From a bacterium (GTDB lineage Bacteria; Patescibacteria; JAEDAM01; Absconditabacterales; Absconditicoccaceae), in NCBI GenBank assembly GCA_030528665.1, contig JAUMYK010000013.1:1-32372 (forward strand): a stretch of 32,372 bases of DNA. The letters run 5' to 3'. Below the pieces are notes generated by a model. It did not search any database and was not told the DNA's origin. It was given only the letters and a program-made list of their open reading frames with translations. Positions 630 to 32,212 of this stretch are shown piece by piece. Position 1 is the first letter of the stretch. Each line of letters begins with the position of its first letter. A program made the translations under genes and the position numbers.

Positions 630-1979
630 TTAGCTTACAATATACCTAATCCTACTACCAACCCTGAGATCTTCCTTATCTAGGGACTCCAAGATTGCTT
701 CCATCCCAATCTCATCTTCAGCATCAATCTCTGGACAGTGGAGGAAGGGGCGAACTGCAAACTGCCGTTCTCCTTTGCTGGTAGACCAAATGTCGCTGAT
801 CGTTCAGATTTTTTCTTTGCCTTTTTGAGCTTCTTCTCTAGCTTCAGCGAGCTGAGTGACCAGCTTTTTTGCTTGGAGAAATCTTTGTCTAATAATCTTG
901 GCATCAACTTTGTTGGGTAAGTGATGCGAAGGTGCAAGCGGCTCATCGTGATATTCAAAAAGTGCAATATTTTCAAACCAGTCCTGCTTGATAAATTCCA
1001 TCAAAAGATCAAAATCTGACTCCGTTTCTCCAGGGAAACCTACGATAAAATTGGTTCTGATATAGGCATCTGGAAATGATGATCTGATAAAATGAAGCAG
1101 TTCCAGCGTCATCTCGTGATTGTAGAATCTGCCCATCGATTTTAAAATATTTGGAGAACTATGTTGGAGTGGAAGGTCAAAATAGGGAATAAATTTTTTG
1201 AGTTGGATCAGTCTTTCAAGATGTTTTTTAGTGAGGATATCAGGATAGAGGTAAAGGACTCTATAATGAAAATCCCCAGGGAGCTGATCCAGCGCTTCCA
1301 AAAGTTCAAAAAGTCTGGCTTTCCCATAGAGATCGACTCCATATCTCGTACTATCTTGAGCGATCAAAATGAGTTCTCTCGCCCCTTGAGCAATCAGCGT
1401 TTTTGCCTCTTCTACCAGCGTCTCAATACTGAGTGAAACCTGTTTCCCTCTAATTTTTGGGATGATACAAAAGCTGCATTGGTTGTTGCATCCCTCAGCG
1501 ATCTTGAGATACTCAAATCCTAGGTCGATATTGCTAAATGCCCTCGCATTTTTTGCCCATTCAAAATCATCAGCTTCAAACTGATCTTTGCCTTGCTCGA
1601 GCATCTGAGGGTCAAAATTTGCCAAGGCTCCTCGAGACAAAAAGGAAATAGCAGGGTGATCTCTTAGTATCGCCCATTCTTGGGTTTCTTGATCATTCAG
1701 TTGAGCATTGAGTGCTACTTTTTCAAAATATTGCACAGCACAACCTAAAAGGCAAACCTTCTTTCCTTTTCTGAGGAGTTTTTTAAGGGTCTGAAACATT
1801 TCATTTCTCCCAGAGGAGATAAATCCACAGGTATTGAGAAAAACAAGCTCTACCTCGCTAGCATAGGGATCTACTCCGTAATAAAATTGCTCAGGTCGCT
1901 TTTCCAAAATCCTTCCAAGCAAAAACTGGGTATCAACAAGATTTTTGGTACAACCAAGATTGATAAAAGAAAAAAACAT
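630..1979 (-). CDS. rimO: Ribosomal protein S12 methylthiotransferase RimO
   Basis: RimO is a radical-SAM enzyme that adds a methylthio group to an aspartate of ribosomal protein S12. The 449-residue product begins MFFSFINLGCTKN, the family N-terminus, with the MTTase-domain cysteines at about 10, 51 and 80. The radical-SAM cluster motif CNNQCSFC is at about 164-171. The C-terminal TRAM domain follows from about residue 385. The frame carries one TGA at 804-806 (Gly) and runs on for 57 residues to a TAA at 630; stopping at that TGA would remove most of the TRAM domain. The start is the ATG at 1979, 36 bases after the stop of the pseudouridine synthase, so the two genes are probably cotranscribed. 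Family and length agree well. Confidence 0.95.
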
Positions 1980-2015
1980 CGTTTGTTGAGTATTAAAAGA
2001 TAAGAAAGGGGGGAA

Positions 2016-2702
2016 TTATGCTACCGCTTTTCGTTTCCCCTCAGCGAGATTTCAGAGCTGAAAAGTTCAAATACTGATTCTCTTGAGATCAGTTACCTCA
2101 TAGCCTAGGACTTTAAAAATTCTTCTGATATGTCTTTTTTTGCCCTCATTGAGGCTAATAAGGAGTCTATGATCCGAGTGTGGCGTGATGGCGAGGGTTC
2201 TGAGGAATTCTCAGCCTTCTTGGATACCATTCAGAATTTTTGCTTTTTTTGATCGATCAAAAGGATGATTGAGCTGGACAAGGTAGGACTTAGGAATTTG
2301 TTTGCTGGGATGCTCATATTCGTGTACCAGATGCGGGTCAGTAGTGAGCAACATCAGACCACGACTCTCCTTGTCCAATCTTCCGATATAGTAATACGCC
2401 TTAAAAGCTGGGGGAAGTAGCTCATAAAAGGTAGGATTATGCGGATCAGATTTGGAGCAGGTATAGCCAGTTGGCTTGTGAAAAAGAAGCAGGGGAGCTA
2501 GCTTTGATGTTGATGGTGCTGTTGGGACTGTACAGCTAATGCCCAAGCTCGCTATGGAGAGCTGATCTCAGGGGAGGAGCTGGTTTTTGTAGTTGGTAAC
2601 AACATTGTCATTGAGGAGAATCTCTCCTTCATCGATCAAACGGATAATCTTTCTCCTAGGGAGTTGGTACTTGGTTTGGAGATAGTTTCTCAAGAGGAGC
2701 AT
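2016..2702 (-). CDS. RluE/RsuA-type 16S/23S pseudouridine synthase
   Basis: The 228-residue protein has an N-terminal S4 RNA-binding domain (about residues 1-50) followed by a RsuA/RluB/E/F-type catalytic domain. The catalytic motif GRLDKESRGLMLLTTD has its nucleophile Asp at about residue 110. The C-terminal motif EGKKRHIRRIF is complete. Four in-frame TGA codons (2568, 2211, 2067 and 2052) read as Gly; the last two give the family ending IGTFQLGNL, where glycines are conserved. The start is the ATG at 2702, preceded by an AGGAAAAGG Shine-Dalgarno. It modifies a uridine in rRNA; which position cannot be told from the sequence. It sits between the lipoprotein gene and rimO. Confidence 0.9.
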
Positions 2703-2714
2703 ACCCTTTTCCTA

Positions 2715-2745
2715 CAAAATAAAAAAGCATCGTGTTGATGCCTCT
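2715..2745 (-). terminator. Terminator after the small lipoprotein gene
   Basis: On the minus strand GCATC (2741-2737), loop, GATGC (2731-2727), then a T-run (2726-2721). It lies between the lipoprotein and the pseudouridine synthase gene and may attenuate read-through into the latter. Confidence 0.75.
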
Positions 2746-2785
2746 TTATATGGTTCTCGCCTTGATATTGCAAGGTATTTTTTGA

Positions 2786-3082
2786 TTATTGAGCAACTAC
2801 TTCATCCACAGTAGGGCTAACAACATCTTCAGCTACTGGAGCCACCTCATCAACAAGCACTACTTCAGCAGGCTGTTCAACTACTACCATTCCTTCAGCA
2901 AATTCAATAAGATCTCCAGTAGTTGCCTCAAGTGTTACATCCATTTCATCAGAGCTATGATCTACTTCAACTACTTCAGGAGTGTTTACGATCTCGTTTA
3001 CAGGTTCATCGTGTTTTCCACATCCTGCCAATACTGCTACAGAGCTGAGAGCAAGCAAAGCTACCAACATTTTTCTTGTCAT
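2786..3082 (-). CDS. Small Val/Glu-rich lipoprotein (98 aa)
   Basis: The N-terminus is a lipoprotein signal peptide: MTRK, a hydrophobic stretch, then the lipobox LAGC with the modified Cys at about residue 21. The mature part is acidic, rich in Val, Glu and Asp, and has no recognisable domain. It should be anchored in the cytoplasmic membrane facing outward; lspA, which would process it, is at 13517. It has no in-frame UGA. A promoter (TTGCAA-N16-TATATA) at 3123-3150 and a terminator at 2715-2745 frame it. Function unknown. Confidence 0.85.
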   Translation of the reverse strand: MTRKMLVALLALSSVAVLAGCGKHDEPVNEIVNTPEVVEVDHSSDEMDVTLEATTGDLIEFAEGMVVVEQPAEVVLVDEVAPVAEDVVSPTVDEVVAQ

Positions 3083-3268: not shown

Positions 3269-4519
3269 ATGTTTTCGATCTATATCCATATTCCCTTTTG
3301 CCAGTCTAAATGCAAGTATTGTGCCTTTGCTACCTTCCCTATGGAGGAAAAAACTGACTATGTAGAACAGTATCTACAGGCCTTTGAGTGCGAGGCGGCA
3401 CGCTATGCTCAGGTCTTTGCAGGACAGCAGGTGAGAACACTCTATTTTGGCTGAGGGACACCAAATTTGCTGGGTGCAGAGCGTTTGGTACGCTTGATCG
3501 AGATGATAGAGCAGCATTTTGATCTCCAAAATTTAGCTGAGCTGAGTTTTGAGTTTAATCCCTATCCAGAGGAGGAGATTTACCAGATTATTCGCAGGAT
3601 TCAGTCCCAGTACGGCAAAAAATATCCAAGAATCAGATTCTCATTTGGAATCCAAAGTTTTGATAATGAGGTACTCCAACTCTCAGGGAGAAAGACACTG
3701 TTTCTTGGATTGGTAGATTTTCTGAGGGGACTCCAGAGCCTCAAAATGGATACGACAGTTTTTAACTTTGATTTTATCGCTTTTGGAAAACGAAATCAGA
3801 GCAAAAAAGGTAATCGCTATCTCCGAAATCAATCAGCTTTAGAATTTTTTCAAAATTTTGTCCATTCTGGATTTGCGGATAGTTTTTCGCTTTATACGCT
3901 CGAACTTTTTGAAAATCAGATGCGAAAAAGAAAAAATGAAAAACTGATTTCAGGAGAATATTTTGGTACAGATGAAGATATTTATGAGGAATTTAGCTTA
4001 CTCAAAAGTATTTTACTCGACTGAGGATATGCAAGGTATGAACTCTCAAATTTTGCACAGGCAGGCAAGTCGAGTATTCACAATAGAGTCTATTGGGAGA
4101 TGGAGGATTATCTCGGACTGGGACTCAATGCCGCTTCCTTCCTCAATGCTAAAACGCTTACTCCTGACTGCTGTGCCTTGCTTGGGGTCAAGCCTTCTGA
4201 GGACATCACAGGGCTGAGATTCAAAAATACGCCACATTTTGAGCAGTATTTGACTGGCAAGACCCTCGATCCGTTTGCCTTTGAGCAACTGAGTACGCAG
4301 GATTATTTGATTGAGTCGTTTTTTCTTGGTTTGAGAACAGATCAAGGTGTGAGCGATCTCTCTCACTATGCCTCGATTTTGGTGCCTCAGTATCAGAGCA
4401 AGCTGGAGAACTACAAGACACAAGGACTTATCTATGATCATCCTCATAAGCTTGTGCTGACCGATGAGGGGATGGATGTCTTCAATGCCATTGTCACTGA
4501 TATTATGCAGCAAATCTAA
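3269..4519 (+). CDS. hemW: HemW-like radical SAM protein
   Basis: HemW is a radical-SAM protein related to HemN, thought to be a heme chaperone. The 416-residue product starts MFSIYIHIPFCQSKC; the cluster cysteines CxxxCxxC are at 11, 15 and 18. The next motif, YFGGGTPN, contains TGA (3452-3454) as its middle Gly, one of the clearest proofs of the code. A second TGA (4022-4024) precedes YARYELSNFA and SSIHNRVYW, both HemW signatures, and the YLGLGLNAASF block follows. The C-terminal HemN domain is present. An AGGA Shine-Dalgarno lies six bases before the ATG. HemW-type proteins have FxxxC-type N-termini like this one; HemN oxidases differ. No heme synthesis gene is seen nearby, so the biological role here is open. 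Confidence 0.93.
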
Positions 4520-6873: not shown

Positions 6874-7323
6874 TTAATAATGGTATTTTTTGCCAGACCA
6901 AAGCGTTGTAGCTCTATACAGCTGCTCAATAAGTGTGAGTTTTGCTAGTCCATGAGGGAGGGTAATCGCACCAAACGACCATTTCTTAATCTTTGGAATA
7001 CTTGAGCAGAGGAGTGGCTCATCGACCCCATAGGGACCTCCAATAATGAAAACTGTCTTGTGACCCTGGAGCGTTTCCGCGATCTGCAAGGTATCGAGTT
7101 GCTTTCCTTCTTTGATGAGGAGGACTTTGTCTCGATCAGTGTATTTTTTTTGTACTATCTCAATCAGGTTTTGTGTCTCTTTTTCGATCACGAGTTGAGG
7201 GTTATCGTCCTTAAATGGTTTGAGCTCGTGAATCTGAAGTTGTTTTCAGAGTCTTTTGCTATATTCGCTTATCGCAGTCGCAAAATGTTTGTCAGAATCA
7301 GAGACGCAGAGGAGAGTAAACAT
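6874..7323 (-). CDS. rlmH: 23S rRNA (pseudouridine1915-N3)-methyltransferase RlmH
   Basis: RlmH methylates pseudouridine 1915 in helix 69 of 23S rRNA on the assembled ribosome. The 149-residue length matches the family (about 155). The SPOUT-fold motif FIIGGPYGVD and the C-terminal block LPHGLAKLTLIEQLYRA, ending in a YHY tail like the family's YHR/YHK, are intact. The true N-terminus, MFTLLCVSDSDKHFATAI, lies upstream of a TGA (7247-7249) in YSKRLGKQLQ and is missed by the standard code. The start is the ATG at 7323; no strong Shine-Dalgarno. It follows obg by 71 bases and ends in the terminator that carries the orphan's promoter. Confidence 0.93.
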
Positions 7324-7394: not shown

Positions 7395-8888
7395 TTAATA
7401 CAAAATATACTTATCATCCAATCCTTCATAATAACTCCTAATTCTCAAAATATCTCCTTTCATCAGTCCTTCAGACTCTAGAAGTTGAATCAGCCCTTTG
7501 CTCTGCATCTGTGCCCAAAAATAGTTTTCTGCTTCATCATTGCCTCGAGGGAGGGTAAACACCATCTTGGTGATCTCACGGTTTTGTACATACCAGACCT
7601 TGGTAAAACGGCTTTCCAGCTCATTGATATAGCCTTCTTCGATGAGCATCGCTTTTTCCTCATCAGTGATCTCGGTGATCAGCTCGCTTTCCTCATCATC
7701 TAGCTCATCCAGATCAGCATAATCCTGATGAAAAGCCTCAAAATCATAACCGCTCTCAGTCTTTTGTAAAAGTTCTGCAAACTTTCTCAGCAGTTCTCCT
7801 ACACCATGATAGCTCCCAGCCGAAGTTACAAAAGTATTTGCCTTGAGTAGAGGGATGCCCAGCTTTGCTAATCTTCTGGCTGCGAGAAAGTCATTGATCT
7901 GTGCGTAGAGTGCGGTCTGATACTCAGCCAAAATTTCCTGATCATTGAGCAAATCCCACTTATTGAGGACAAATACGATCTTTTTGGTCAGAATTATTTC
8001 ATCATTTTTTTCAACTTCAAACGTAATCAATCCTCCCTCTTCTCTAAAGACAAAATTTAAATCCTGATCTTCTCCAAATTTTTGCTCCAGATACAAAAGG
8101 ATTTCCTCCATCAGTTTGACGGTCTCGCTGATCCCACTTTCAAACCTCGAGAGATCAGCCACAAAAGCAAATACCCTTGATTTGAGGACATGTCTCAGAA
8201 ACGCATTTCCAAGCCCCTTCCCATGGCTTGCTCCTTCAATGAGTCCTGGAATATCGATTACATTGAAGCGGTAGTCGCCCACTGAGACCGATCCGAGATT
8301 AGGCACCAGCGTGGTAAAAGGATAATCGGCTACTTTCGCTTTTACATCAGCCATACAGTTGATCAGCGAGGATTTCCCTACACTAGGACTCCCAATCAGT
8401 CCTACATCTGCCAAAAGTTGCAATTCAAGCGTTACTTCCTTTTTGTGTCCTGGCTCTCAGAGGATATAAAAGTTGGGATACTGATTGACAGAATCTTTGA
8501 AGTGAATATTTCCTTTCCCTCCTTCTCCACCAGCAAGGATTTCTAGTTTTTGACCATCATATTCCATCTGAGCAAGGAGTTTTCCAGAGGCAGTATCTTT
8601 GATCATCGTACCCACAGGAACTACGAGTTCAAGATTGGCTCCATGAGCTCCATATTGATCTTTGGTTCTACCAGGTTCCCCAGCTTGTGCTTTAAAAATT
8701 TTCCTATACTTGTAGTCAATCAGCGTATTCTCATCTTTGGAAGCAACAAAAAATACTGATCCACCATCCCCTCCATCTCATCCAGATGGTCCTCCAAACG
8801 GCACTCCACTTTCCCTTCTTCCACTGGCAATTCCATCACCTCACTTTCCAGATGCGATCGAGATTTTGACTTCATCATAAAACTGCAT
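7395..8888 (-). CDS. obg: GTPase Obg/CgtA, ribosome assembly
   Basis: Obg is an essential GTPase acting in large-subunit maturation. The 497-residue product has all three parts: the glycine-rich Obg domain (residues 1-155), the G domain (G1 GSPSVGKSS at about 166-174, G3 DIPG, G4 NKWD) and a C-terminal OCT-like domain. Three TGA codons (8841, 8778, 8457) read as Gly; two complete the Obg-fold motifs GKGGDG and GGPSGGDGGDGG. There is an acidic linker, DELDDEESE, before the OCT domain. The start ATG at 8888 is chosen because the promoter -10 box is at 8922-8927; the frame is open further upstream but that part would not be transcribed. The extra length over the usual 430 residues lies in the G domain and linker. 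Confidence 0.95.
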
Positions 8889-9086: not shown

Positions 9087-9845
9087 ATGGGAAGACGACA
9101 TAGTATCGCAGCTAAAAAAGCCTCAGGAGATGCTGCAAAATCCAGAATCTATAGTATCGTGGGTAAAAAAATCCAGATCGCAGCCAAAAATGGAGCTGAC
9201 CCAAAAATGAATCCTGCACTGGAGATGATCTTAGAAAAAGCCAGATACCACGGTCTCCCAAAAGATGTTATCGAAAGAGCTATTCTCAAGGGTTCAGGAC
9301 AGCTTGAGGGCGAAGAGATGAAAGAAGTGATCTACGAAGGCTATGGTCCCAATGGTGCAGCCCTCTTGATCAAAACCATTACTTCCAATACCAATAGAAC
9401 CTCACAGACCGTCAGAACAGCCCTTCAAAAAGCAGGTGGTTCGATGGCAGAAATCGGTGCTGTAGCTCGACAGTTTAAAGAACAAGGACTGATTATCCTT
9501 GATGGAAAAACTGAACATTATGAAGATAAAGGAAGGCAGATGGAAAGAGTGTTGCCTTTTGATGCAGAGGAGTTGGAGATGGAGCTTTTAGAGTTGGCAA
9601 TAGAGGATATGACCATCGAGGACCAACATGCTGAAGTCTATACCTCCAAAACTGACTTTATTACGGTGAGACAGCAGATCGCAGATTTAGGATATCATAT
9701 TACTGAGGCGGATATTCACTTTTTCGCAGACAATCAGGTCAATCTCGCAGGGGAGGATCAGGAAATCTTTGAGAAGATGCTAGAGCTGATTAATGAGGAT
9801 GAAGATGTAGAACATATCTATCATAATGTAGAAAATTTGTCTTAG
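9087..9845 (+). CDS. YebC/TACO1 family protein
   Basis: YebC-family proteins act as transcription regulators or, as shown for some members, in translation of difficult peptide stretches. The 252-residue protein covers the full family length: the N-terminal MGRRHSIAAKKASGDAAKSR corresponds to the family's MAGHSKWxNIKHRKxxxDxxR; the middle has GLPKDVIERAILKGSG and VIYEGYGPNGAALL; the end has HADNQV-like and DVEHIYHNVE. No in-frame UGA is used. The start ATG has an AAAAGAGATG context with a GA-rich stretch seven bases upstream. It stands alone, divergent from obg. It ends in TAG. Confidence 0.92.
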   Translation: MGRRHSIAAKKASGDAAKSRIYSIVGKKIQIAAKNGADPKMNPALEMILEKARYHGLPKDVIERAILKGSGQLEGEEMKEVIYEGYGPNGAALLIKTITSNTNRTSQTVRTALQKAGGSMAEIGAVARQFKEQGLIILDGKTEHYEDKGRQMERVLPFDAEELEMELLELAIEDMTIEDQHAEVYTSKTDFITVRQQIADLGYHITEADIHFFADNQVNLAGEDQEIFEKMLELINEDEDVEHIYHNVENLS

Positions 9846-10028
9846 AGTGGTGATCGCATCTTCTGAGAGATAGGCAAAAAGATCGGAAGAGCAAAAAGAG
9901 ATGCTCGTATTTTTGGGGAGGAGTTGATGTCAATATCGTTATGCTTATCAAGATGATTTTGCAAGTGAAAGGTGCTTGTAAAAAGGACTTTTGTTTGAAA
10001 TATTCTTTAAGATTAATAAATTGAGAGT
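9846..10028. other. Intergenic stretch without a convincing gene
   Basis: Reading all frames with UGA = Gly I find only short open stretches (up to about 55 codons with no good start) and no hairpin with a T-run. It leads into the GC-rich island at 10041. Confidence 0.4.
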
Positions 10029-10040
10029 ATAAATAAAAAC

Positions 10041-10205: not shown

Positions 10206-10215
10206 AACTACTTCA

Positions 10216-10243: not shown

Positions 10244-10252
10244 AAAAATACC

Positions 10253-13471: not shown

Positions 13472-13516
13472 AATAGTAGTAGTAATGAATAAAAAAGTAA
13501 TCTACTTACTTGCACT

Positions 13517-13942
13517 TTATGGTTTTCTTGAAGAATTGCAAGGGAAAATCTCATCAAAAAGCAGAACAGCAACTGCTATGCTCAGCAAAATATCTGCTAT
13601 ATTAAATACAGGAAAACTTCCTAATGCTATAAAATCCCTTACACCACCTAGTAAAATTCTGTCGAATAGGTTTCCGAGTGTTCCAGCGAGCAGGAGGATA
13701 AAACTCGTAGCGCTGAGTACTTTTTCTTTGCGTAAATAGAAAAAAAATCAGATTCAGAGCAATGAGAGGCTAATGACAATACTGGAGGGAACAGCAATTC
13801 CTCGAGAAATCCCTGTATTCAACAGAGGATGAAGGAGTGGTAGCTCTTCTCCCCATCTCAGAGTATAGAAAAGATACTTAGTTCCTTGATCAAGGAGGAA
13901 AAGTAAGAAAATACTGAGTCAGATTTGTATATTTTTATGCAT
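13517..13942 (-). CDS. lspA: Lipoprotein signal peptidase LspA
   Basis: LspA is the membrane aspartyl protease that cuts the signal peptide from diacylglyceryl-prolipoproteins. The 141-residue product has the four helices of the family and all its motifs: DQGTK at about 18, NTGISRG at about 42, AGTLGNLFDR with the catalytic Asp at about 94, and FPVFNIADI with the second catalytic Asp at about 117. Three TGA codons (in IGLS and in LLGIGFFF) read as Gly. It is almost invisible to standard gene finding. Start at the ATG 13942 with a short GGAT before it. It is 33 bases after the argS stop and could process the lipoproteins at 2786 and 10253. Confidence 0.93.
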
Positions 13943-13975: not shown

Positions 13976-15688
13976 TTACATAGTTTGCGGAGTATTGATT
14001 CCTAGCAGCTCAAGAGCATTTTTGAGGGTTTGCTGGATTCCGGCAACAAGTGCAAGACGAGCCTGACTTAGCTTTGGCGCATCGGTATCCAAAATTTTAG
14101 CACTATGATAGTAGCTCGCAAATTGTTTTGCAAGCCCTAGCGCAAATCTTGCAATAATATTGGGTTTATATTCCTGTGCTGCTTTCTTAACGATACTAGG
14201 GAAACTAGCAAGTTGGACAAGGAGGTTTTTTTCACTCTCGAGTTCTAAAAGACTGAAGTCTGGATCTTGAAAATCTATTCCCTCTGCTTTTCTGAAAATT
14301 GAACAGATCCTTGCATACATATATTGGAGGTAGGGACCAGTCTCTCCTTCAAAGGAAAGTGCAGTCTGCTTATCAAAGGTAATCCCCTTTTCTGAATCTT
14401 GGAGGAGCATCCCAAATTTCATAGCACCAAAGGCTACATCTCTAGCAATGCTGGATTTTTCCTCAGCTGGTAAGTCACGCGTATCGACCATTTCCTGTGC
14501 TTTTTCTAGCAGGCTATCACGAAAATCTTCATACAATACAACATTTCCAGCGCGAGATGACATTTTTCCATCAACCAAATCTACCAGTCCATAGGAAATA
14601 TGTTGGAGTTTATCGTGATTAAAGCCAATCAGTTCCAGGGTTTTGAAGAGTTGCTCAAAATGATGTTCTTGCTCAAGTCCTACAATATAGAGTGATTTAT
14701 CATAGTTAGGAAAATCAGCTTCTTTTTGATAGGCAAGCGCAATATCTTTGGTAGAGTAGAGGGAGGTTCCATTGGATTTGAGCAGGAGGAAAATACCAAG
14801 TCCATAGGCTTCCAAATCCATAATAATAGCACCTTGACTTTTTTGGGCTATACCCTGTTCTAGGAGCTCATGTACTTTTTCAATACCTGGTTGTTCTACC
14901 ATACTTTCAAAGTACCACTTGTCAAAATCTTCAGTCCCAAGCTCAGCAAAAATTTTCTTCATATCCTCGAGACACATTGCTCTTGTTTCTTGCCAAAATG
15001 CAAGCAATTCAGGATCTCAGTCTTCGAGCTGTTTTTGTAATGAAGCAATCTCTGCTTTGTAGACTTCTGGGTTTTCATCGACCTTTCTCGTGGCTGAGGT
15101 ATACAGCTCTCCCACCCATTTGCTGAGATTCAGATTTGGAAAATCAGAATTATCAAATTTTTTATAGTACCATATCCATTTGGCTACATGGGCTCCAATA
15201 TCACCTGGATAGCAGGTTTTGATCACCTTGTAACCTGCAAAGCGCAAAATCCTTGAAATGGATTCAGCCAAGAGACAGTTTCTAACATGTCCGATATGAA
15301 TCGATTTGTGCGTATTGGGAGCTCGTCATTCTAGGAGAATTGTTTCTCATAGTGTTGCTCATTGTCCAAACTGAGTTTTTTGTACTTGGATGCTCTTGAG
15401 TACCTCTTCTGCAATTGTTTGTGTTTTCAGAAAGGCATTAAGGTAAGGACCTACTGCTTTGATCTGAGTAAAAGGATGTAAATTCTGATCCTGAAGAGCA
15501 GTTTCCAATTTGCTTGCGATCGCTACCGGAGAGAGTCCCAAGGGCTTTGCAAACTGAAAACAAGGAAATGCAAAATCTCATGCGATATTTTCTGGTGCAA
15601 TTTGAATAAGATCTACCAGAGTATCCGCAGAGGTATCCAGATGTGGAGAAAGCAAATCAGCAAAACGTTTTTTGTATGAGCTTAACAT
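13976..15688 (-). CDS. argS: Arginyl-tRNA synthetase
   Basis: A complete class I arginyl-tRNA synthetase of 570 residues. The N-terminal Add1 domain (residues 1-100) precedes the HIGH motif at 131-134 (IHIGHVRN). The KMSSR motif is at about 375-379 (DGKMSSRAGNVV), and the C-terminal DALR anticodon-binding domain covers the last 120 residues. Five TGA codons read as Gly; four of them cluster between residues 37 and 121, so the standard code shows only fragments. Start ATG 15688, no clear Shine-Dalgarno. It is first in an operon with lspA and the DUF3127 gene. A likely promoter lies at 15722-15750. Confidence 0.95.
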
Positions 15689-17663: not shown

Positions 17664-20174
17664 TTACATATCATAGGTCAAAAGATATTGTGCAATTTGC
17701 TTAAAGATAGGACCAGCAGTAAATCATCACCACTGACTTCTTCTAGGACGACGAATCCAGATATTAACTACATATTTGGGGTCTTGAGTAGTGATAATTC
17801 CTGCAAAAGTACCATTAGTTCGCCCCTCTCCTCTTTGGTATTTTCCTCTAAAGGAGATCTGTGCAGTTCCTGATTTTGCACCGAGATGAAATCCAGAGAG
17901 ATTCGCAGTATGCGTGAGTTCAGGATTGGTATTGATGACATTAAAGAGTCCTTCTTTGATTGCTTGGGAGCTAGTTTGTTTAAAAATAGTATGTTTTTTT
18001 TGGTTTTTGGTATAGGTATTTTGGGGATTGGAGCTATCTACGATATTTTCGATAATTGTGGGCTGGAGGTATTCGCCACCATTTACAAGAGCAATATAGG
18101 CTGCAGCGAGCTGAATTTGAGTCGTGGTAAGTCCCTGTCCAAAAGAATTATTCAAAAATCTGGCAAACGAGACGATATTGACCTTGTCCACAAATCCCTC
18201 CTTTTCTCAGGCAAGCTCGATATTGGTAAGTTCTCCGAATCCGAGTTTCTCCAGATAATTGTAAAAGGCATATTTCCCTATTCTTTGTACGATTCTTACC
18301 ATCCCTACATTACAGGAATGCACAAAGGCGTGCAAAAAGTTGTTGTATCCTTCACAAATACGGCTTGCGTTTTTGATGGTATAGGTACCTACCTTTACTT
18401 TTCCCTCATCATTGTAGGACTCAGAAAATCCTGCCTCATCAGTATCAATACCGATCGCCACAGTAAAAGCCTTAAAAATACTTCCAGGTTCAAAAGCAAC
18501 ACTAATGTTTTTATCAACGAAGACCTGAGAGCCATAGATATTTTTAGCAAGATATTTTTTTTCTTCGCTAGAGGTTCTTTCGCTCAGCGTGGCAAGTCTA
18601 TAGTTGCCTCCAGTGTGGATATAGACAGGAATATCAACATAGGTCAGATCCTCGAGAATATGCTGATGTTCAATCCCTAGCGGTATGAGGGTATAGGCAT
18701 CATTATAGTTGTTGGGATCAAAGCTCGGTGCATTGACCGATGCTTTTACTTCTCCATTTTTTGCATTAGTGACCAAAATACTAATTGCATCAGCTCTGAG
18801 AAATTCCAGCTGTTCTTTCACAATTCTCTCGACTTCCCTTTGGAGTCCAATATCGATAGTCAGATAAATATCATAACCATTAACAGGATTAGCAATCTCA
18901 AATTCATTGGATCCTACATTTCCCAGCCAAGCAGAAGTTCTTCCCTTGATTTCTCACTTTTTCCCCTTGAGGATAGTATCAAAATATTCTTCGATCCCAT
19001 AAAAAGCTACTCCATTTTTATTGACATAGCCCAAAATATTTGCCATAAAGTCTCCATACGGATAGTATCTTGTCACAAAAGGTTCTAAAACCAGACCATA
19101 CAGGACAGGAGTTCTCGTAAGCTTTTTTTTCTCATTACTTCTATCAATTTCAGAAAGTTCATTGAGATGTTGAACTTTAAGTTCTCTGACCTCTTGTGCG
19201 AGAGCAGGATTGAGTCCAGAGATGAGCTTGATATATTTCCATTCCTGTTGTTCAAAGAGTTTATCAAAATTGTGTCCTATGGGGTATTTCCATTTTCTGA
19301 GCAGGGTTTCTACTGTTTTTTTTGCAGCATCCTTGCTAGAAATAAGGGTTGGGGTAATATAGAGATAGTGATCAGCTTCGATACTGAGATAGGGCAGTGC
19401 TTTGGATTTGACTTCTTCCAAAAATTTTGGTTCCGTAAAATAGCCAAGATAATTCTGACTTTTTATTCAGATTTTAATCTTTTGATCAAGTTTATTGGTA
19501 ATATGGGAGAGTGCTTTTTCTTTGTTAAACTGTTCGATGATCTGCTGATAGTTCTTTTCGTATTCCTCAAATTTAAAGGTCTCATACTCAGGAGATGCTA
19601 TCCCACTTCCAAAATAAAATAATTCTGGCTTTTTTGGGAGGAGCGTGACTCCAGCAAAGAGTTCAATATTTTTGACACAGTCCTCCTTGCTCACCTCGTT
19701 CATACCATTGATTTCACAGAGATGTTTGTAGATAACTGGTGCGATGATTTCGATAAAGCGGGGTTTCATCGGCATTCCTCTCAGCTGTGCTGGAATGTTT
19801 GGAAACCTTTTCGCATCAGCTTCAAATTTCCATTGGAGTTCTCTTGGATCAATAGCGAGATCGTAGAGCGTGATATTTTCCGTGAGTTTTACAGGATGAC
19901 CACCTTTATCCAAGGCATAGATATTGCCTCTTTCAGGAGTGAGCAAGGATTCTCTATAGTGCTGTCTGCTCAGTGCACTATCGTATTCTTGGTGTTTGAT
20001 GACTTGGAGCCGAAAGAGCCTTAGCACAATGATCAAAAACAGAAAACAAAAAAAGGCAATCAGTTTTGCTTCTCTTTTCTCGATCAGCGTTGCTATCCAA
20101 GGGATCGAGCTTAGCATCTTAAAAAACTGATTTCCTCTGCGATGGTGTCTTTTGGGGCTAAGAAGGCGGTTCAT
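17664..20174 (-). CDS. Class B penicillin-binding protein (FtsI/PBP2 type), 836 aa
   Basis: A D,D-transpeptidase that cross-links peptidoglycan. A short basic N-terminus and one membrane helix (about residues 37-57) anchor it. The transpeptidase motifs are present: SxxK in EPGSIFKAFT (Ser about 565), SxN in HSCNVGM (Ser about 620) and KSGT in GAKSGTAQ (Lys about 767). Five TGA codons are Gly, including a tandem pair (17724-17729) giving WGGFTAGPIFKQIAQYLL, the family's GG.vAaPvF ending. At 836 residues it is some 200 longer than FtsI; the surplus lies between the membrane helix and the dimerisation domain, with LPKKPELFYFGSG and many charged residues. It follows the prepilin-like gene by 19 bases. 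FtsI or PBP2 cannot be distinguished here. Confidence 0.93.
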
Positions 20175-20193: not shown

Positions 20194-21372
20194 TTATTTG
20201 AGATAAAAACCTCTGGTATCAAAACTGGATTGCAAGGAATAGCTATAGTCTTTGAGCATATTGCCAAGTTTCCTTCACCATTTATGGGGTGAAAGCTTGG
20301 TCGTTATACTCATCTTGATAAAGGGATTGATCTGTACGGATTCCTCGGTTCGTGCATAGTCTGGATTTTTGGTAGGGGAGAGTGCAATGTTTCGGTTAAC
20401 AATAGAGAGTTGCTCATCAAAGAGATCAACCCAGCCATTATCCTTGTTTGTTGGTAGCTTATAGTTGGCATAGGCTCCATTGGGACCGTTACTGACAGCA
20501 GCTCCATCACACACAAATCCCTCTCCATAGTCACAGGCTCGGGTATCGATGTCTCCATCGTAGGTTGTAGGATTGCTGAGATCAAAATTATGTTTACTTC
20601 CTGCATCAAAACCTCTCAGTTTGAGGATCTGAATCGTTTCTCGAGGATGGTTTTTCCCATCTTCTCAGAGTTTTTGCGTTGTCTGTCTTCTCAGGAACAG
20701 CCTTCTTTGTCCATCGTGCGAGATCAGATAAAGTTCTTTTACATTTTGGCTGTCTGGAATCGCTATTGGTCCTGTTCCAAGGTCTCTATCATCAGCATCG
20801 CCTACTTCTGGAAAAAAGTTACTCGCATCAACTTCTTCAATCAGGTTGATTTTCGTTTTTCCATCGCTATCTCCCGCTACATCCCAAAAGAGTGCCTTGT
20901 ATTGCCCGTAGGACTGAGGTCATTCTGCTAATTCATTTCCTTGTTTACAATTCGCACTTGCATAATACTTTCCATTATCTATAGAAGAGCAGTATTTAAT
21001 TCTATGTTGATCTTTTGTAGTATCGATGGTAATTTTATTTTGATTGCCGTATGCGGTGAAATTATTACAGTGTCCATTATCTCCAGTGTCCCAGGAGAAA
21101 GGAGCTTGGTTTGGATCGTTGTCACAGCCACTCTGCTGTCTATTGAAATACTCCTCATAATCAATCGTATAATCCTGAAAAAGAATCGCAAATCTGTTCA
21201 TCACTCCATTGGTATCCTCGATGATCTTTTGTCTAGCATCATTAAAAATTTTGACTCTCGGAAGGGTAATCATAACTGAGTAGAGCGTTGTGATCAGGCT
21301 TCCTGAAATAATAATTACCAAGAGGAGTTCGATCAAGGTAAAACCTTTTGCCTTAAGTGATAAGCGAGACAT
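20194..21372 (-). CDS. Large prepilin-like protein (392 aa)
   Basis: The N-terminus MSRLSLKAKGFTLIELLLV is a type III (prepilin) leader, cut after the Gly and followed by FTLIE with Glu at +5, then a hydrophobic helix. The remaining 360 residues are extracellular, Asp/Asn-rich and beta-like, with several cysteines. This fits a minor pilin or pseudopilin of a type IV pilus or type II-like system rather than a major pilin. Three TGA codons (20920, about 20663 and 20275) read as Gly join fragments; one gives KLGEDG. It sits in an operon between a peptidoglycan-binding protein and the PBP. The adhesion target or specific pilus role is not known. Confidence 0.85.
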
Positions 21373-21405: not shown

Positions 21406-22872
21406 TTAGATAAGGCTATTGAGCTTTGCTCTCGTCTGGGTTCCAAACCATCCATAGCCAGCTTTATTTTTTTCTTTTCCAGTAACAATACCGTGCTTGA
21501 GTTGAAACTGATAGACTGCCTCAATCGTAGCAGGAGAATAGATTCCATTGATTGTCCCTTGGTAAAGTCCTTGACTGTGGAGATAGTTTTGGAGGACTTT
21601 GACTTGAGGATGGTACTGGTTTTTAGTGAAAGCCTGAGTAAAGGTCGTTTTTGCAGGAGGAGTTGCTTGTGATGGAGCTGAAGGAGTAAGCTCTGGAGTG
21701 CTAGGAGTAGCGTGGGTTTCAGGATGTACTGGCTGGGCAGGAGTCTCGCTCTCAAGCATCAGCGTAAAATCTTTTCTGAGTTCTGCTGCGAGTTTATTGA
21801 CTCCATTATCAAAAGCGGTTAGTGCAGGGAGTTCAAGGTCTTTGAGTTTTACTTTACCATTTTTGATTCCATCATCAATAAGTTTCATCCCTTTTATGAG
21901 AGCTGGAGCTTTGGTCTCAATACCGTTGGTGTATGGAGCAAGACTCATACTACTGGTCAGTAAGAGCTTGCAGTCAAGCTTGCCAGAGGAGTCGGTAAAT
22001 CTCTTTTGAAGTTCGCTATTTTTCTCGAGGAGATCGAGGTAGGCTGGATAGTCAAAAAATGCTGAGAAGACATAGTAAACCGCTTTATCCGATTCAGCTT
22101 TAAATTTTTTCATAAAATTATCCTTGTGAATGAGATATTTTGCCTGAATATCTGGATGCGGATTGTGAGCAGCGATCATACGAGCAATCGTCTCATCAAA
22201 ATCAGCTGCTAAGCCTGTTGTTATTTTTTCCTTGGTCGCAAGCATATTCTTCCAAAAGCTAGAGCGTGCGTCAATGGTAGCATTGAGGCTGGTAAAGACT
22301 TTTTGTGTATCAGTACTGTGTTTTTTGACCAGTTCAATACTATCCATTTTCTGAGCAAGTCCATTGAGGAGCTCTTTATTGTTGTCCACATATTCCAAAA
22401 AACTGGTCTTGGTCTTGCTGGTTTTGAGATAGTAGTCATTTTCTAGGGTATTGATCTTGATCGCATTCTGATTGTAAAAGGTATCCAAGCTATTGCTAAA
22501 AATCAGAGGATCCACGGTATTGAGTCCGTATTCGTACCTTTTGATGTCGCCATCAAGCTTGATATACTCGTTGAGAATTGTGGTTTTGAGATTATCGGTC
22601 AGTTTAGAAAAGTCCAAATTCTGATTTTCGACAGGGATCGCCCCCAAACAGCTCGCAGCCCTAAAAAGCGAGGTATCTGAAAATTTTTGTGCTTCTTGAG
22701 CGATAGACTTGAGCTTGGTTTTGCCAGCTTCGATCTGATTTAGGAGTTTGGTTTTATTGTTTTCAAGTTTGGTAGTGAGGTTTTTGATCTCAGTTTTGCT
22801 AGGAGTCGCTGCGAAACTTATTCCTCATAGGAGCAAAACTCCTCATAGTATGCATAGTCAGGCTTTTTTCAT
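21406..22872 (-). CDS. Secreted peptidoglycan-binding protein (488 aa)
   Basis: The signal peptide MKKAGLCILGGVLLLGGISF uses three UGA-Gly codons in its first 16 residues and ends before AATPS. The central 370 residues are charged and probably helical, with no family I recognise; a Pro/Thr/Ser-rich linker (TPAQPVHPETHATPSTPELT...) follows at about 390-420. The C-terminus is a PG_binding_1 domain: QVKVLQNYLHSQGLYQGTIN, IYSPATIEAVYQFQLKHGIV and GWFGTQTRAKLN. It should act in the envelope by holding to peptidoglycan. The ATG at 22872 has GAGAAAAAG just upstream. It is first in the operon with the prepilin-like gene (33-base gap), the PBP and the transketolase-like gene. The promoter is in the palindrome at 22914-22962. 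Confidence 0.88.
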
Positions 22873-24297: not shown

Positions 24298-24684
24298 ATG
24301 ATAATGGTCAAAGCTGCACTTTTAGGGGCTTCTCTCGCTCCCTCTCTTGCTCATAGAATTCTAAAGCGTCTGCAAGAGGCAAACTATCAGATTTTTCCTA
24401 TCAATCCAAAATATGAGCAGATCGATGATACCGCTTGTTTTGCTAGTTTGGAGGAGTTGCCTGTTCTTCCAGAGGTAGTGATTTTTATGGTCAATCCAAA
24501 GCTGAGTGTTCAACTTCTTCCGCAACTGGAAAAGCTTGGTATCAAAAAGGCACGATTTCAGCCTGAGACCTTTGATAAGGAAGTAGTAGCGCTAGCAGAG
24601 GAGCTAGGCTTGAGCTATGAAGATCAAAAATGTCTGCTGATTGCCCCTCCAGATGCATTGGCAAACTTTGTAGCAAAAAAATAA
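24298..24684 (+). CDS. CoA-binding domain protein (YccU-like)
   Basis: The 128-residue protein is a single Rossmann-type CoA_binding_2 domain: AALLGASLAPSLAHRIL at the start, the strand YQIFPINPKY (family V.PVNP), a SLEELPVLPEVVIFMV block and a C-terminal GLSYEDQKCLL, the family's ending with a conserved Cys. Such proteins bind CoA and are thought to be regulators or acyltransferase relatives; the exact role is unknown. No UGA codons. The ATG at 24298 is followed by another at 24304; either could start. It is 46 bases before mnmA and probably cotranscribed with it. Confidence 0.85.
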   Translation: MIMVKAALLGASLAPSLAHRILKRLQEANYQIFPINPKYEQIDDTACFASLEELPVLPEVVIFMVNPKLSVQLLPQLEKLGIKKARFQPETFDKEVVALAEELGLSYEDQKCLLIAPPDALANFVAKK

Positions 24685-24730: not shown

Positions 24731-25828
24731 ATGAAAATTTTAGTTGGACTCTCGGGTGGGGTAGATAGTGCGGTTGCTGCCTGGCTTCTCAAAGAGCAGG
24801 GACATGAGGTAGTCGCTGGATTTATGAAAAATTATGTCTCTGAGAGCAATGACTGTACGACCTATCAGGATTCCTTGGATGCGATCAAGGTAGCAGAATA
24901 TCTCGGTATCGAAATCCGTGCTTATGATCTGCAAAAGGAGTATCAAGAACGTGTGATTGATTATATTTTTGAGGGCTATCAAAAGGGCGTTACGCCAAAT
25001 CCTGATGTGCTTTGCAATTCCTTGATTAAATTTGATGTTTTCCTGCAAAAGGCAATGCAGGAGGGTTTTGATAAAATTGCTATGGGACATTATGCGAGAA
25101 TAGTGAGTAGTGAACAAGGAACAAGTGACAAGGAGCAAGGAACTCTAGACTCTGAACTCTGAACGCTGAACTGATGCACCTATCATCTCTATCGTGGAGT
25201 CGATCATAATAAAGATCAGACCTACTTTCTTTCTGGACTCAATCAATATCAACTGAGTAAAGCTCTTTTTCCCATCGGTCATTTGACGAAACCAGAGGTC
25301 AGAGCTTTGGCTCAAAAAATTGGGCTTCCTAATGCTCATCGTAGAGATTCTCAGGGCTTATGCTTTATTGGAAATATTTCTATTAAACAGTTTTTGATGC
25401 AAAAGTTGCCGATCAAAAAGGGAGAAATCAGAACCCTTGATGGCAAGGTAGTTGGTCATCACGATGGAGCCTATTTTTTTACCATCGGACAAAAACACGG
25501 ACTTGGGCTACATTTCAAAGCATATGTGTATCGTATTGATATTGAGCATAATATTGTATATGTCGGTGATAGGGATATTGAGGAGCTTAATACTCAGCAT
25601 ATTACGGTCAAAAATCGACATTGGATAGCGGAGGAGAGGCAAAAATGAACGCAACTCACTGGTAAAATCCGTTATCGCCAAAATCCTCCTGTTGCCTGTG
25701 AAATTACGCAAATCAATGGTACAGAGCTGAGTTTTTCTTTTCCACAGGCTCAACGAGCGGTGGCTCCAGGACAGGTGTTTGTAGCGTATGATGGGGAGGA
25801 GTGTCTTGGAGGCGGGATTATCGTATAA
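24731..25828 (+). CDS. mnmA: tRNA-specific 2-thiouridylase MnmA
   Basis: MnmA adds sulfur to U34 of tRNA Lys, Glu and Gln. The 365-residue protein has the PP-loop SGGVDSAVAAWLL at residues 8-20, the catalytic Cys95 (NPDVLCNSLIKF), the second Cys211 (DSQGLCFIG), KDQTYFL at 161-167 and the C-terminal APGQVFVAYDGEECLGGGII. Three TGA codons read as Gly. Between GHYARI and YHLYRGVD (residues 125-150) there is an insertion of about 15 residues, SSEQGTSDKEQGTLDSELGT, coded by short DNA repeats (see findings). The start at 24731 is preferred to an upstream GTG (24698) because it gives the family N-terminus and has GGAGAG just before it. Confidence 0.94.
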
Positions 25829-25954: not shown

Positions 25955-27271
25955 ATGGCGATCAAAAGAATTGGAAAAATTTGACCTCAAAGACTGACCA
26001 AACCAAATGTTTTGTCCTTTGTCGCGTATACTTTGATTTTGTTTTTTGGTGCAACCATTGTAGCAAATATCAATCCAGATGCCAATAGTGAATATCGTAA
26101 TGACCGAAAAAAAACCACGATCCAACAGATGCAATGGGTCTTTCTTGCAGATGATGGGAACAAGTATTTGCTCAACGATCAACCCTTCTGAGAGCATGCT
26201 GCAGCAGAAAATTTTGACTATTTGATGCCTGATGCAAACGCAAGTTCAGAGCTAGAGTCTCAGCAAAAGCCTTCTTCATCAGAGGAAGTGAGTGAGCAGA
26301 CCACATATGCGATGGCATTCAAAAAAGGCTATGCTGCCCTACGACCTAGAATCGAAGATCGTTCACTTTTTATCAATACAGTATTTGAGTATCTTTTGAG
26401 AGGAGATATTGTCGAGTTACCTGAATGAGCTGCAAGATATGTAGTAGCACTCTATGGTATGGAGCATGCTGTACATCAAAAAGTGCGTGATGGAGCCTCG
26501 TGTATGACCCCTTGGAGCTATACGATAGAGGATGGGGCTTCCGTACTTGCCTATCAGCAGAGAAGTGATGCTCCCTATATCTGCAATATCCAGCGTAGAA
26601 TCTGTAAAGATGGAAAACTCTCAGGATCTTTTACACAAGTTGCCTGTGATGAATCTCGCAATGGAAATCTAAAAAAAATCTGATTTGAGACTTGGAATAC
26701 AGATGATAATGCGAGAGAACAACTCCAGTGAGATATTCAAGCCCATCAAGAAAGACTTAAACTCCTCAAAAAACAAGGATATATTATGCCGGATGAGCCA
26801 TATTATGCAGATGCTGATTTTAATATCTATGGACAGAGAAAACCAAATCCTCGCCCTTCGACACTTGAGGGAGGAAATCATGATGCTTTGAGTGAAGAAC
26901 CTACCAGCTATCCACAAGCAATCCCATGAAAAAAATATTGTACGAGTCCCTGGGGGGAAAAGGTCAAGTCAGGTCAATTTATCAAGGCGTATAGATTTAG
27001 AAATGGCTTTACTGATATTCCTTGTCAGGTGCAGTTGAGACTCTGTGTAGAGGGGGAGCTAGAGGGTACGCATCAGTATCCAAATTGTAAGCTTTGGGAG
27101 ACTTCTTATGAAGATTTCCGTTATGGATATCTCAATGGAGATGAGCCTTCTCCGCAAAAATTGATCAAAATGCTAGAAAAAGAATATTCTACTGATGCCA
27201 ATCCAGATATGACCTTGAATCCAGAGATTGCTCGAGAAATGGCGGATTACCTCCAGTCGCTGACTCCTTAG
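25955..27271 (+). CDS. Secreted protein with two Cys-rich PWG-type modules (438 aa)
   Basis: Six TGA codons read as Gly give one 438-residue protein; the standard code shows only pieces. A basic start and a membrane segment (about residues 20-40, VLSFVAYTLILFFGATIVAN) suggest an anchor or signal peptide. Two related modules follow: SCMTPWSYTIEDGASVLAYQ to QVACDE at about residues 180-235, and YCTSPWGEKVKSGQFIKAYR to PNCKLW at about 330-380. Both share C-x2-PW, a G-x4-AY block, C-x2-Q-x-R-x-C, a G-x-L-x-G and a final C, so each could carry two disulfides. The family is not recognised. The ATG at 25955 is in frame; an ATG at 25936 is not. It has its own promoter. Confidence 0.8.
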
Positions 27272-27334
27272 TATCCTTTCAATCCGCTTTTTCACTTTTC
27301 TCTTGAGCGACTTTTATTTCTCTATTGAGCGTAG

Positions 27335-28087: not shown

Positions 28088-28217
28088 ATGCTGAGGGGGA
28101 AAAAAATTAAAAACTCTGATTTCCTCTGGTCATTCCGCTTTTTGAGTAAAACTTCTTGATTTCTCGTGTCAAAAGAGTAGGCTTACCATACTTTTATATT
28201 CTCATCTCTTTCTAGCT

Positions 28218-30570: not shown

Positions 30571-31053
30571 ATGATGTCCAACTCCTGATTGCGTCCCTCT
30601 CGAGATGAATATTTTATGGAGGTCTGTCGTGCGATTGCCAAGAGAGCAACCTGTGACCGTGGCAGAAGTGGTTGCGTAATTGCCAGAGATCATCAAATCT
30701 TGGTGACAGGCTATGTTGGGGCGCCGAAGGGCTTGCCGCACTGTGATGAAGTAGGGCATCTCTACAAGGAAGTCAAGCATAATGATGGCAGTGTCTCTCA
30801 GCACTGTATGAGAACAGTCCATGCTGAGCAAAATGCGATCTGTCAGGCAGCCAAGCTTGGGATTGCACTGGATGGAGCTACCTTGTATTGTAAGATGACG
30901 CCTTGTAGAACCTGTGCTATGATGATTATAAACTGCGGTATCAAAAGGGTTATCTGTGAAAAAAAATATCATGCCTGAGCTGAAAGTGAGGAAATGTTCC
31001 AAAAAGTCTGAATCCAACTTGAATTTTTTGATGAAGAAATAGAAAAATATTAA
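30571..31053 (+). CDS. dCMP/cytidine deaminase family protein
   Basis: The 160-residue protein has the zinc-deaminase signature: HAEQNAI (His84, Glu86) and PCRTC (Cys112, Cys115). The N-terminal RPSRDEYFMEVCRAIAKRAT, the QILVTGYVGAPKGLPHC block and HCMRTVHAE are those of dCMP deaminases (ComEB type), which make dUMP for thymidylate synthesis. Three TGA codons are Gly: one at residue 6, two near the C-terminus (KKYHAGAESE, QKVGIQ). The start is set at the ATG 30571, upstream of the first UGA. It is a single gene upstream of tRNA-Val and divergent from the DUF1846-like gene. Confidence 0.92.
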
Positions 31054-31083
31054 GCGCTTTTAGGATTTTACAAAAGGAAGCTA

Positions 31084-31111
31084 TTGAAAAGGAGAGGAAA
31101 ATCGCTATATT
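31084..31111 (+). promoter_or_regulatory. Promoter for tRNA-Val
   Basis: TTGAAA (31084-31089), a 16-base spacer and TATATT (31106-31111). Transcription would start near 31118, four bases before the tRNA. Confidence 0.7.
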
Positions 31112-31121
31112 TCGATCAGCA

Positions 31122-31195
31122 GGGTAATTAGCTCAGTTGGTTAGAGCGCTTGCTCGACATGCAAGAGGTCACTGGTTCGAGTCCAGTATTACCCA
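31122..31195 (+). tRNA. tRNA-Val(GAC)
   Basis: A full cloverleaf of 74 bases: acceptor GGGTAAT/ATTACCC (31122-31128, 31188-31194) with discriminator A, D-arm GCTC/GAGC, anticodon stem CTTGC/GCAAG (31149-31153, 31161-31165), T-arm ACTGG-TTCGAGT-CCAGT. The seven-base anticodon loop reads TCGACAT, giving anticodon GAC (31156-31158) for valine codons GUC/GUU. Position 33, nearly always U, is C here. CCA is not encoded. It does not carry the UCA anticodon that reads UGA; that tRNA is elsewhere. Confidence 0.93.
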
Positions 31196-31249
31196 GGTTT
31201 GCTGTACAAGGCAAAATGCGGTTTTTTTCAGATTTTTTTCTTTTGAATT

Positions 31250-32212
31250 ATGAAACTTACGGTTAATCCATCACAAAGATATGCTAAAATGAGAGCGCAT
31301 ACCGCTACTCACCTTCTCCATGCTGAATTGGCACAATTTTTCCCAGAGACCAAACAAGCAGGTTCACTCGTTGATAGTGATTTTTTGAGATTTGATTTTT
31401 ATGCAGACAGATTGCTTACTCCGCAGGAACTCGCGATGATTGAGAAAAGGATCAATCAGATGATTTATCTCGCTCGTGAGGTAAAAGTGGAAGAAATGAG
31501 TATTGAAGCAGCAGGAAAGCTCGGAGCCAAGATGTTTTTTGAAGAAAAGTATGGCGATGTGGTGCGTGTTGTTCAGATCGTAAATGATGAACTTCCGCAG
31601 GAAATGCAACATGATGACAATGCTGAGTATTTTGCAAGCTATGGAGAAGTGCTTTCCATTGAACTCTGTGGAGGAACCCATGTTGCTAATACCAGAGAGA
31701 TTGGTGCATTTACTATCGTGTCTCAGGAGGCGGTAGCATCTGGGATCAAAAGAATTACCGCAGTGACAGGACACAAAGTCGTTGAAAAAATTGAAAATCA
31801 GACTACCTTACTCTGGAATCTCGCCCAAACCCTCGAAGTCAAGTCCATCGCGCAACTCCTTGAAAAAGCCAATAAAGTTGTTAAAGAATTTGCTGATGCA
31901 AGGGCAAAACTTGAAGCTATGGAGATGAAGGTGATGATCTCAGTTCTTCATGCTCAGCCACATCGTGCTACTGAGCAGTTTGATATTGTGATGCAAGTAC
32001 CTGCAGATTTGAATTTTAAAGCGCTTGTAGGTCTGGCAAAGGAGAGATGGTCCGGGAAAAATGTTTTAATTGGTAATGAGCAGGGAAACTTCTTGATTCT
32101 CGCTAAAGAATGAGTTTCTGCTAAGTTGCTTGCTCAGCAAGTAGGACTCAAAGGTGGTGGAAATGATAGTCAGGTACAAGGAAGAGATGAAAAGGTACTA
32201 GCTTTGTTATAG
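31250..32212 (+). CDS. Alanyl-tRNA synthetase C-terminal half (editing + C-Ala), separate gene
   Basis: The 320-residue protein contains only the editing and C-Ala parts of alanyl-tRNA synthetase. The zinc-binding editing motifs are intact: HTATHLLH (His17, His21) and CGGTH (Cys140, His144). A helical linker (residues 185-235) and the C-Ala/DHHA1 end GLKGGGNDSQVQGRDEKV follow. One TGA (32111-32113) is Gly and lies just before the C-Ala end. The N-terminal catalytic and tRNA-recognition domains are missing; no sequence for them lies upstream, where the tRNA-Val gene ends 54 bases earlier. The Met start at 31250 coincides with the natural domain border. It is either one subunit of a split AlaRS or an AlaX-type editing protein. 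Confidence 0.88.

Follow-up and report, generated by a model that had tools for sequence, protein, structure and literature searches.

Glycine at UGA and apparent tryptophan at CGA in a contig of Absconditabacteria type

The stretch of DNA analysed here, contig JAUMYK010000013.1 (hereafter the window), comprises 32,372 bases with 39.5% GC and no N. An initial annotation, made from the letters alone, had proposed that the window uses translation table 25 throughout. We are highly confident that the window belongs to an uncultured bacterium of Absconditabacteria (SR1) type that reads UGA as glycine and takes CGA, and in the clade also CGG, as tryptophan. The proposal thus stood for UGA; CGA is read as tryptophan, contrary to table 25.

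Mechanically called open reading frames (ORFs) covered 91% of the window when only TAA and TAG were used as stops, versus 68% with table 11; freeing TAA or TAG instead gave 73% and 76%, respectively. From these calls a set of 31 genes was curated, with starts trimmed by hand and four ORFs dropped or replaced, and gene names were taken from family searches (Table 1). The curated genes contain 64 in-frame TGA, in 21 of the 31 genes and on both strands, so that the original count of more than 60 TGA stood while the accompanying figure of about 23 genes came down to 21. Each position then quoted (2052, 2067, 3452, 7246-7248, 8778, 8841 and 17724-17729) is indeed an in-frame TGA. As also claimed, the genes end only in TAA (23) or TAG (8), and none has an internal TAA or TAG. 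The stops are TAA and TAG because genes were called with those stops; the lack of TAA and TAG inside homologous stretches is independent of the calling procedure. The 32 untrimmed calls contain 79 TGA. Some of these precede the probable starts of their genes (those for Obg, ClpP, dCMP deaminase, the AlaRS-like protein and a lipoprotein) or belong to the dropped ORFs. Two of these (13224-13739 and 27314-28189) were dropped because family searches preferred a gene on the opposite strand; for a third (9790-10254) the family search gave no match, and the fourth (12714-13037), which had no match in the related genome G092 and was not itself searched for families, was removed by judgement.

Table 1. 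Features of the window with their in-frame TGA, CGA and CGG codons
Feature	Coordinates	Strand	TGA	CGA and CGG	Remark
RimO-like methylthiotransferase	630..1979	-	1	CGA 1632-1634 and codon 28; CGG 765-767	
RsuA/RluB-type pseudouridine synthase	2016..2702	-	4	2 CGA	
HemW-like radical SAM protein	3269..4519	+	2 (first 3452-3454, in FGGGTP)	3 CGA	
RlmH	6874..7323	-	1 (7246-7248)	1 CGA	
Obg GTPase	7395..8888	-	8841-8843, 8778-8780, 8457-8459	CGA 7545-7547	
YebC/TACO1 family protein	9087..9845	+	0	CGA 9096-9098, 9468-9470	
Signal peptidase II (LspA)	13517..13942	-	3	1 CGA	
Arginyl-tRNA synthetase	13976..15688	-	5, including 15578-15580	1 CGA, 15323-15325	
Penicillin-binding protein (transpeptidase)	17664..20174	-	5, including tandem 17724-17729	CGA 17820-17822; CGG 20010-20012	
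Prepilin-type N-terminal methylation motif protein	20194..21372	-	3	4 CGA (20539, 20392, 20350, codon 244)	
Peptidoglycan-binding domain protein	21406..22872	-	3, in first 16 codons		
CoA-binding domain protein	24298..24684	+	0	CGA 24553-24555	
MnmA tRNA 2-thiouridylase	24731..25828	+	3	CGA 25616-25618, 25754-25756	
Protein without family name	25955..27271	+	6	3 CGA	G092 relative at 26% identity
dCMP deaminase	30574..31053	+	3	CGA 30601-30603, in R-P-S-x-D-E-Y-F-M	
tRNA-Val (GAC)	31122..31195	+			Sole tRNA found in window
AlaRS-editing-type (tRNA_SAD) protein	31250..32212	+	1		

To assign codons, we applied a log-odds test to seven genes, covering 20 of the 64 curated TGA, 13 of the 33 CGA and 2 of the 5 CGG. 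The test was run on standard-code orthologues and on the unambiguous codons of relatives, 17 in all. With standard-code orthologues (17 TGA columns), glycine scored 12.2, followed by serine at -7.1, while tryptophan scored -28.6; 57 of 59 control codons were recovered, with TTA and ATA missed. With the relatives' codons (18 columns), glycine scored 17.9 and the next residue, asparagine, -1.6, and all 59 controls were recovered. Across the 20 TGA sites, the 241 cells of relatives hold TGA 86 times, GGN 74 times and TGG not once.

At several TGA sites the glycine is strongly conserved. It is present in 14/14 standard-code rows at each of Obg codons 16, 37 and 144, in 16/16 at codon 37 of arginyl-tRNA synthetase (ArgRS), and in 15/15 and 14/15 at codons 407 (18954) and 656 (18207) of the penicillin-binding protein (PBP). 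In 1olt and 9p2u, the two solved relatives found, a glycine of GGGT aligns with the HemW TGA at 3452. Likewise, the TGA at 2067 faces glycine in both alignments shown (4lab and 9cl9) for the pseudouridine synthase, an enzyme first described as RluE-like that scores nearer RsuA/RluB than RluE; position 2052 falls outside these alignments. In the tandem pair of the PBP, codon 816 (17727) is glycine in 13/15 standard-code rows, with one cysteine and one gap, and its partner 817 is serine in 11/15 and glycine in 2/15. RlmH codon 26 is G in 1vh0 and 4fak and S in 1to0, the three alignments shown. The initial annotation had placed TGA on invariant glycines in Obg, HemW, the synthase, the PBP and RlmH; the description goes too far for RlmH 26 and for the mostly serine PBP 817. 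Other TGA occupy less conserved or clade-specific columns (ArgRS 110, PBP 236 and, in the prepilin-like protein, three sites) or variable ones (MnmA 155, 159 and 317), and glycine is found in 10/16 and 8/16 standard-code rows at ArgRS 114 and 224. Two columns differ between the clade and other bacteria: ArgRS 121 is Phe/Tyr outside and TGA or GGA inside, and RimO 392 is Val/Ile outside and TGA or GGN inside. In total, 36 TGA lie within stretches of window genes that align to G092. Re-calling the genes without TGA stops and aligning them by family, a check that had been suggested, thus gives glycine at the conserved TGA columns. With in-frame UGA at conserved glycines and only UAA and UAG as stops, as in table 25, we conclude from the alignments that UGA is a glycine codon in the window.

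Under the standard code, the in-frame TGA would have to reflect sequencing errors, pseudogenes or a mosaic contig. Such an origin, judged here on the assembled sequence, is hard to reconcile with TGA spread over both strands and 21 genes that contain no internal TAA or TAG, and with TGA on glycine columns that relatives fill with TGA or GGN, and we give it a negligible probability.

UGA could also be a sense codon as in the Mycoplasma-type code 4, which would make it tryptophan rather than glycine and which is assumed in many database translations of the window's relatives. W does replace motif glycines (SGGVDS or DSQG) in 87 of the 120 listed MnmA database rows (P0001-P0120). We take this as a sign that genomes in which UGA is glycine were translated with code 4 in public protein sets. 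The W at UGA columns of these rows (column 317), which arises because of that translation, was rejected as evidence for tryptophan, and rows at the DNA level were therefore used for the codon test. Given the tryptophan score and the lack of TGG reported above, together with the glycine identity elements on the tRNA(UCA) of relatives (described below), code 4 is extremely improbable. In a separate observation, two of the 120 listed rows (P0069 and P0114, one of them named Gracilibacteria) are MnmA proteins with added PF04480/PF18741 (DUF559-type) domains.

The curated set contains 33 CGA in 19 of the 31 genes and 5 CGG, with either codon present in 21 genes. At the 13 CGA sites covered by the test, 155 cells of the 17 relatives hold TGG 75 times, CGA 46 times, CGG 6 times and Arg twice. 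As controls, 77 AGA sites gave Arg in 448 of 933 cells and TGG in none, and 25 TGG sites gave TGG in 122, CGA in 40 and Arg in 1 of 306 cells. With the relatives' unambiguous codons (12 columns), CGA scored 39.2 for W, 1.9 for Y and -16.0 for R; with standard-code orthologues (8 columns), the values were 1.4 for W, 0.1 for S and -8.4 for R. Because TGG itself scores only 0.1 for W (Y, -4.6) with standard-code rows, the test has little power for tryptophan there, and these rows argue clearly against arginine, not strongly for tryptophan. When the window was aligned to the G092 genome, the 21 CGA cells faced CGA 8 times, TGG 6 times and Arg not once, whereas AGA faced Arg in 65 of 126 cells (Fisher p = 1.5e-6 against the CGA pattern). 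In all, 11 of the 13 CGA sites fit tryptophan.

Among individual sites, YebC codon 4 is Trp in 14/14 standard-code orthologues, and 12 relatives have CGA (7) or TGG (5). YebC codon 128 is F 11, W 2 and Y 1 in standard-code rows and TGG 7, CGA 4 and CGG 1 in relatives. The Obg site (7545-7547) shows W 5, F 4 and others 1 each among the printed residues of 14 standard-code orthologues, with CGA 9 and TGG 5 in 14 relatives. Other columns are filled differently outside the clade: the ArgRS site (codon 122) is S 12 and A 4 in standard-code rows versus TGG 7, CGA 4 and one gap in 12 relatives; the PBP site (17820-17822) is T in 14/15 standard-code rows versus TGG in 13/14 relatives; and MnmA 25616 is mostly L/V/I versus TGG 7, CGA 3, CGG 1 and others 3 in 14 relatives. 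For the prepilin-like protein, 12 relatives have TGG 11 and CGA 1 at codon 278; TGG 7, CGA 3 and F 2 at codon 327; and TGG 7, CGA 2, CGG 1, Y 1 and F 1 at codon 341. RimO codon 116 is CGA 6, TGG 1, CGG 1 and gap 2 in 10 relatives. The CGA of the CoA-binding protein faces Trp in 4/4 alignments shown (8 chains matched), and that of dCMP deaminase faces CGA in G092 and, in the two of four shown alignments that extend to the site, Trp (2hvv) and Ile (4p9c). Compared with G092, two of the three HemW CGA face CGA and one faces Phe, and the RlmH CGA faces Leu. CGA is thus found on tryptophan columns, as in the Absconditabacteria code, and behaves as a tryptophan codon in the window, contrary to table 25.

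Data on tRNAs and release factors come from the genomes of relatives only, as does the outcome of two further checks proposed initially, for a tRNA-Gly(UCA) and for the absence of release factor 2 (RF2). ARAGORN was run on stretches that together include every Rfam tRNA match of G092 (34) and G141 (37). Each genome has one tRNA with a UCA anticodon, which the program labels SeC, and UCG and CCG tRNAs, which it labels Arg. Applying the tRNA identity rules as given in PMC8629427, the tRNA(UCA) in both genomes is Gly-type (G1:C72, C2:G71, G3:C70 and U73), and tRNA(UCG) and tRNA(CCG) are Trp-type, with G73 and without A20 (position 20 judged by eye); the GCG, UCU and CCU tRNAs of both genomes retain A20. 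The RF2 profile was over cut-off in 0/18 TGA-coded relatives and in 2/2 standard-code members of the class. Of the 18, all but G156 have one RF2-profile match below cut-off, and all 17 such matches contain a PxT motif, which we take to be of the RF1 kind. By extension to the window, UGA would likely be decoded by a glycine-accepting tRNA(UCA), RF2 would be absent, and RF1 would terminate genes at UAA and UAG. CGA and CGG would be decoded by tRNA(UCG) and tRNA(CCG), which, lacking the arginine identity base A20 and carrying G73, would therefore presumably be charged by TrpRS.

Several observations weigh against reading the window in this way. At CGA, standard-code orthologues alone put tryptophan narrowly above serine, because most CGA sites are tryptophan only within the clade. 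At RimO codon 28 and prepilin-like codon 244, relatives have no Trp except for a single CGA, and 7 of the 21 CGA cells compared with G092 stand opposite G, N, E, F, L, K or S. At MnmA codon 353, 92 standard-code rows have Arg 40 and Ser 38, and AGA is present in 2 of 14 relatives; the relatives at this site (25754) otherwise hold CGA 5, TGG 5 and CGG 2. The 120 listed database protein rows have R 104 and W 16 there, where R may be CGA translated as R. In addition, CGG scores best as Tyr in both tests at its two testable window sites, with W -1.6 and R -2.5 for standard-code rows and W 1.8 and R -3.1 for relatives. These are largely aromatic columns; at RimO 405, eight standard-code rows have Y 4, F 1 and gap 3, and 10 relatives have I 3, Y 2 and gap 5. 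Finally, the window's own codon-specific tRNAs and release factor lie outside the evidence and are inferred from relatives, and the absence of RF2 from any single relative, whose completeness is not stated, could be a gap.

The CGG result bears on plain code 25, in which UGA is glycine and both CGA and CGG remain arginine, since the log-odds test did not settle CGG in the window. Table 25 as implemented alters TGA only, and for some Gracilibacteria PMC8629427 reports CGG as arginine. Moreover, six Gracilibacteria-like TGA-coded genomes, namely G133 (L202), G142 (L203), G068 (L206), G157 (L201), G016 (L208) and G167 (L216), use CGA at positions of ArgRS where 16/16 standard-code rows have Arg, as if CGA were still arginine in them. 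None of the six falls within the window's ArgRS group, and since they lie outside it we do not claim CGA as tryptophan for them. Facing this are the near absence of Arg opposite window CGA, in both G092 and the 17 relatives, where almost half of the cells are TGG, the invariant tryptophan at YebC codon 4, and the tRNA(UCG) and tRNA(CCG) without A20 in both relatives read. We therefore consider plain code 25 very unlikely. One Trp column of ArgRS is shared with these genomes, and it is TGG in all 19 rows of Gracilibacteria-like type. Two further TGA-coded genomes with divergent ArgRS, G044 (L097) and G080 (L111), carry CGA where 16/16 standard-code rows have Trp. They group with Absconditabacteria in a tree of RF1, on which we do not rely; it is built from one short gene, with CGA and CGG read as X even in two standard-code outgroups.

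The placement of the window agrees with reading both codons as reassigned. In the MnmA search (120 rows listed, the best 74% identical), the nine rows with an organism name that rank better than 69 all belong to Absconditabacteria or SR1, at 56-69% identity, and the first Gracilibacteria name appears at rank 69; by this one gene, the closest named relatives are Absconditabacteria/SR1. In an ArgRS comparison spanning 192 genomes of the class, in-frame TGA is present in every one of the best 12 listed matches (G024, G141, G092 and kin). As far as the cited parts of PMC8629427 go, UGA is glycine in Absconditabacteria and Gracilibacteria, and CGA and CGG are tryptophan in Absconditabacteria, as inferred with Codetta; in Gracilibacteria, CGG is tryptophan in some and arginine in others, and those parts report no change of CGA. 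The tryptophan assignment of CGA and CGG is restated for Absconditabacterales in the portion consulted of PMC13092985, and phages of these bacteria are treated in PMC10746230, likewise consulted in part. Among the literature matches listed, CGA as tryptophan in the group was treated only by PMC8629427 and PMC13092985. Both reassignments are thus already published for Absconditabacteria; the window adds a member, and code 25 is the older half of the combined code.

The window resembles the Absconditabacteria code in having UGA on glycine and CGA on tryptophan columns, and its relatives do so in their Gly-type tRNA(UCA), Trp-type tRNA(UCG) and tRNA(CCG), and lack of an RF2 match over cut-off. 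It differs in its GC content, which slightly exceeds the genomic values of 0.26-0.38 published for CGA/CGG clades in the cited section of PMC8629427, in using UGA for just 10% of its glycine codons, and in the best score of its CGG for tyrosine. With Gracilibacteria it shares UGA as glycine, but the six Gracilibacteria-like genomes above carry CGA at Arg columns and the nearest genes of the window are Absconditabacteria-like. NCBI table 25 has the same glycine codon and the same stops, UAA and UAG, but keeps CGA and CGG as arginine, which the window contradicts for CGA. The combined code has since been given an NCBI table of its own; a literature search on it listed no paper.

Some genes of the window call for brief comment. 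On visual inspection, the first 16 codons of the peptidoglycan-binding domain protein resemble a signal peptide. The tRNA_SAD gene, as called, is too short for a catalytic domain; a split AlaRS is one possibility, an independent editing protein another. A 726-residue protein at 4623-6803, with one TGA, had no Pfam match and no counterpart found in G092, and the gene at 29506-30429, with a DUF1846 N-terminal domain, has no TGA in 307 codons.

We also examined how far the reassigned codons have spread. In the window, CGA and CGG make up 36% of presumed tryptophan codons. Comparison of G092 with part of G141 (145 non-overlapping gene pairs, 44,346 aligned codons) was made after removal of overlapping shadow frames; with these included there were 213 pairs, and UGA faced Cys in 32 and TGG in 15 of 507 cells. 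The paired codons of G092 (L132-L151, L167-L196) include CGA 295, CGG 27 and UGG 234, and the 295 CGA face TGG 115 times, CGA 103 times, CGG 13 times and Arg not once. The 27 CGG face CGA 9 times, TGG 6 times, CGG 3 times and Arg likewise not once. In naive long ORFs of the whole G092 genome (247,514 codons), CGA occurs 1580 and UGG 1587 times, or 64 per 10,000 each, and CGG 7 per 10,000. Published CGA use reaches at most 37 per 10,000, with one assembly near parity with UGG, as given in part of PMC8629427; the comparison is approximate, since the published values concern Pfam-aligned codons and ours are not so limited. CGA and CGG account for 13% to 62% of presumed tryptophan codons in 14 relatives with several of the genes (small samples of 19-44 Trp codons each), for more than half in G141, G109, G149, G067, G126 and G044 (five genes or fewer; 23-44 Trp codons each), and for 7/9 in the single G092 gene counted. 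In the window's close kin, CGA has probably become the most frequent tryptophan codon, ahead of UGG and beyond the published extent. For UGA, five genes gave a share of glycine codons of 8% in the window and 59% in G024, the nearest of the searched genomes in 4/5 genes.

These results have consequences for annotation. As had been predicted for the standard code at about two-thirds of the genes, table 11 breaks 21 of the 31 window genes. Annotation with table 25 would still place Arg where Trp belongs at the CGA codons of 19 of the 31 genes, and the apparent translation of UGA with code 4 in database MnmA rows is a third error. The lineage holds two reassignments at different stages, and its gradient in the use of reassigned codons makes it suited to the study of codon spread.

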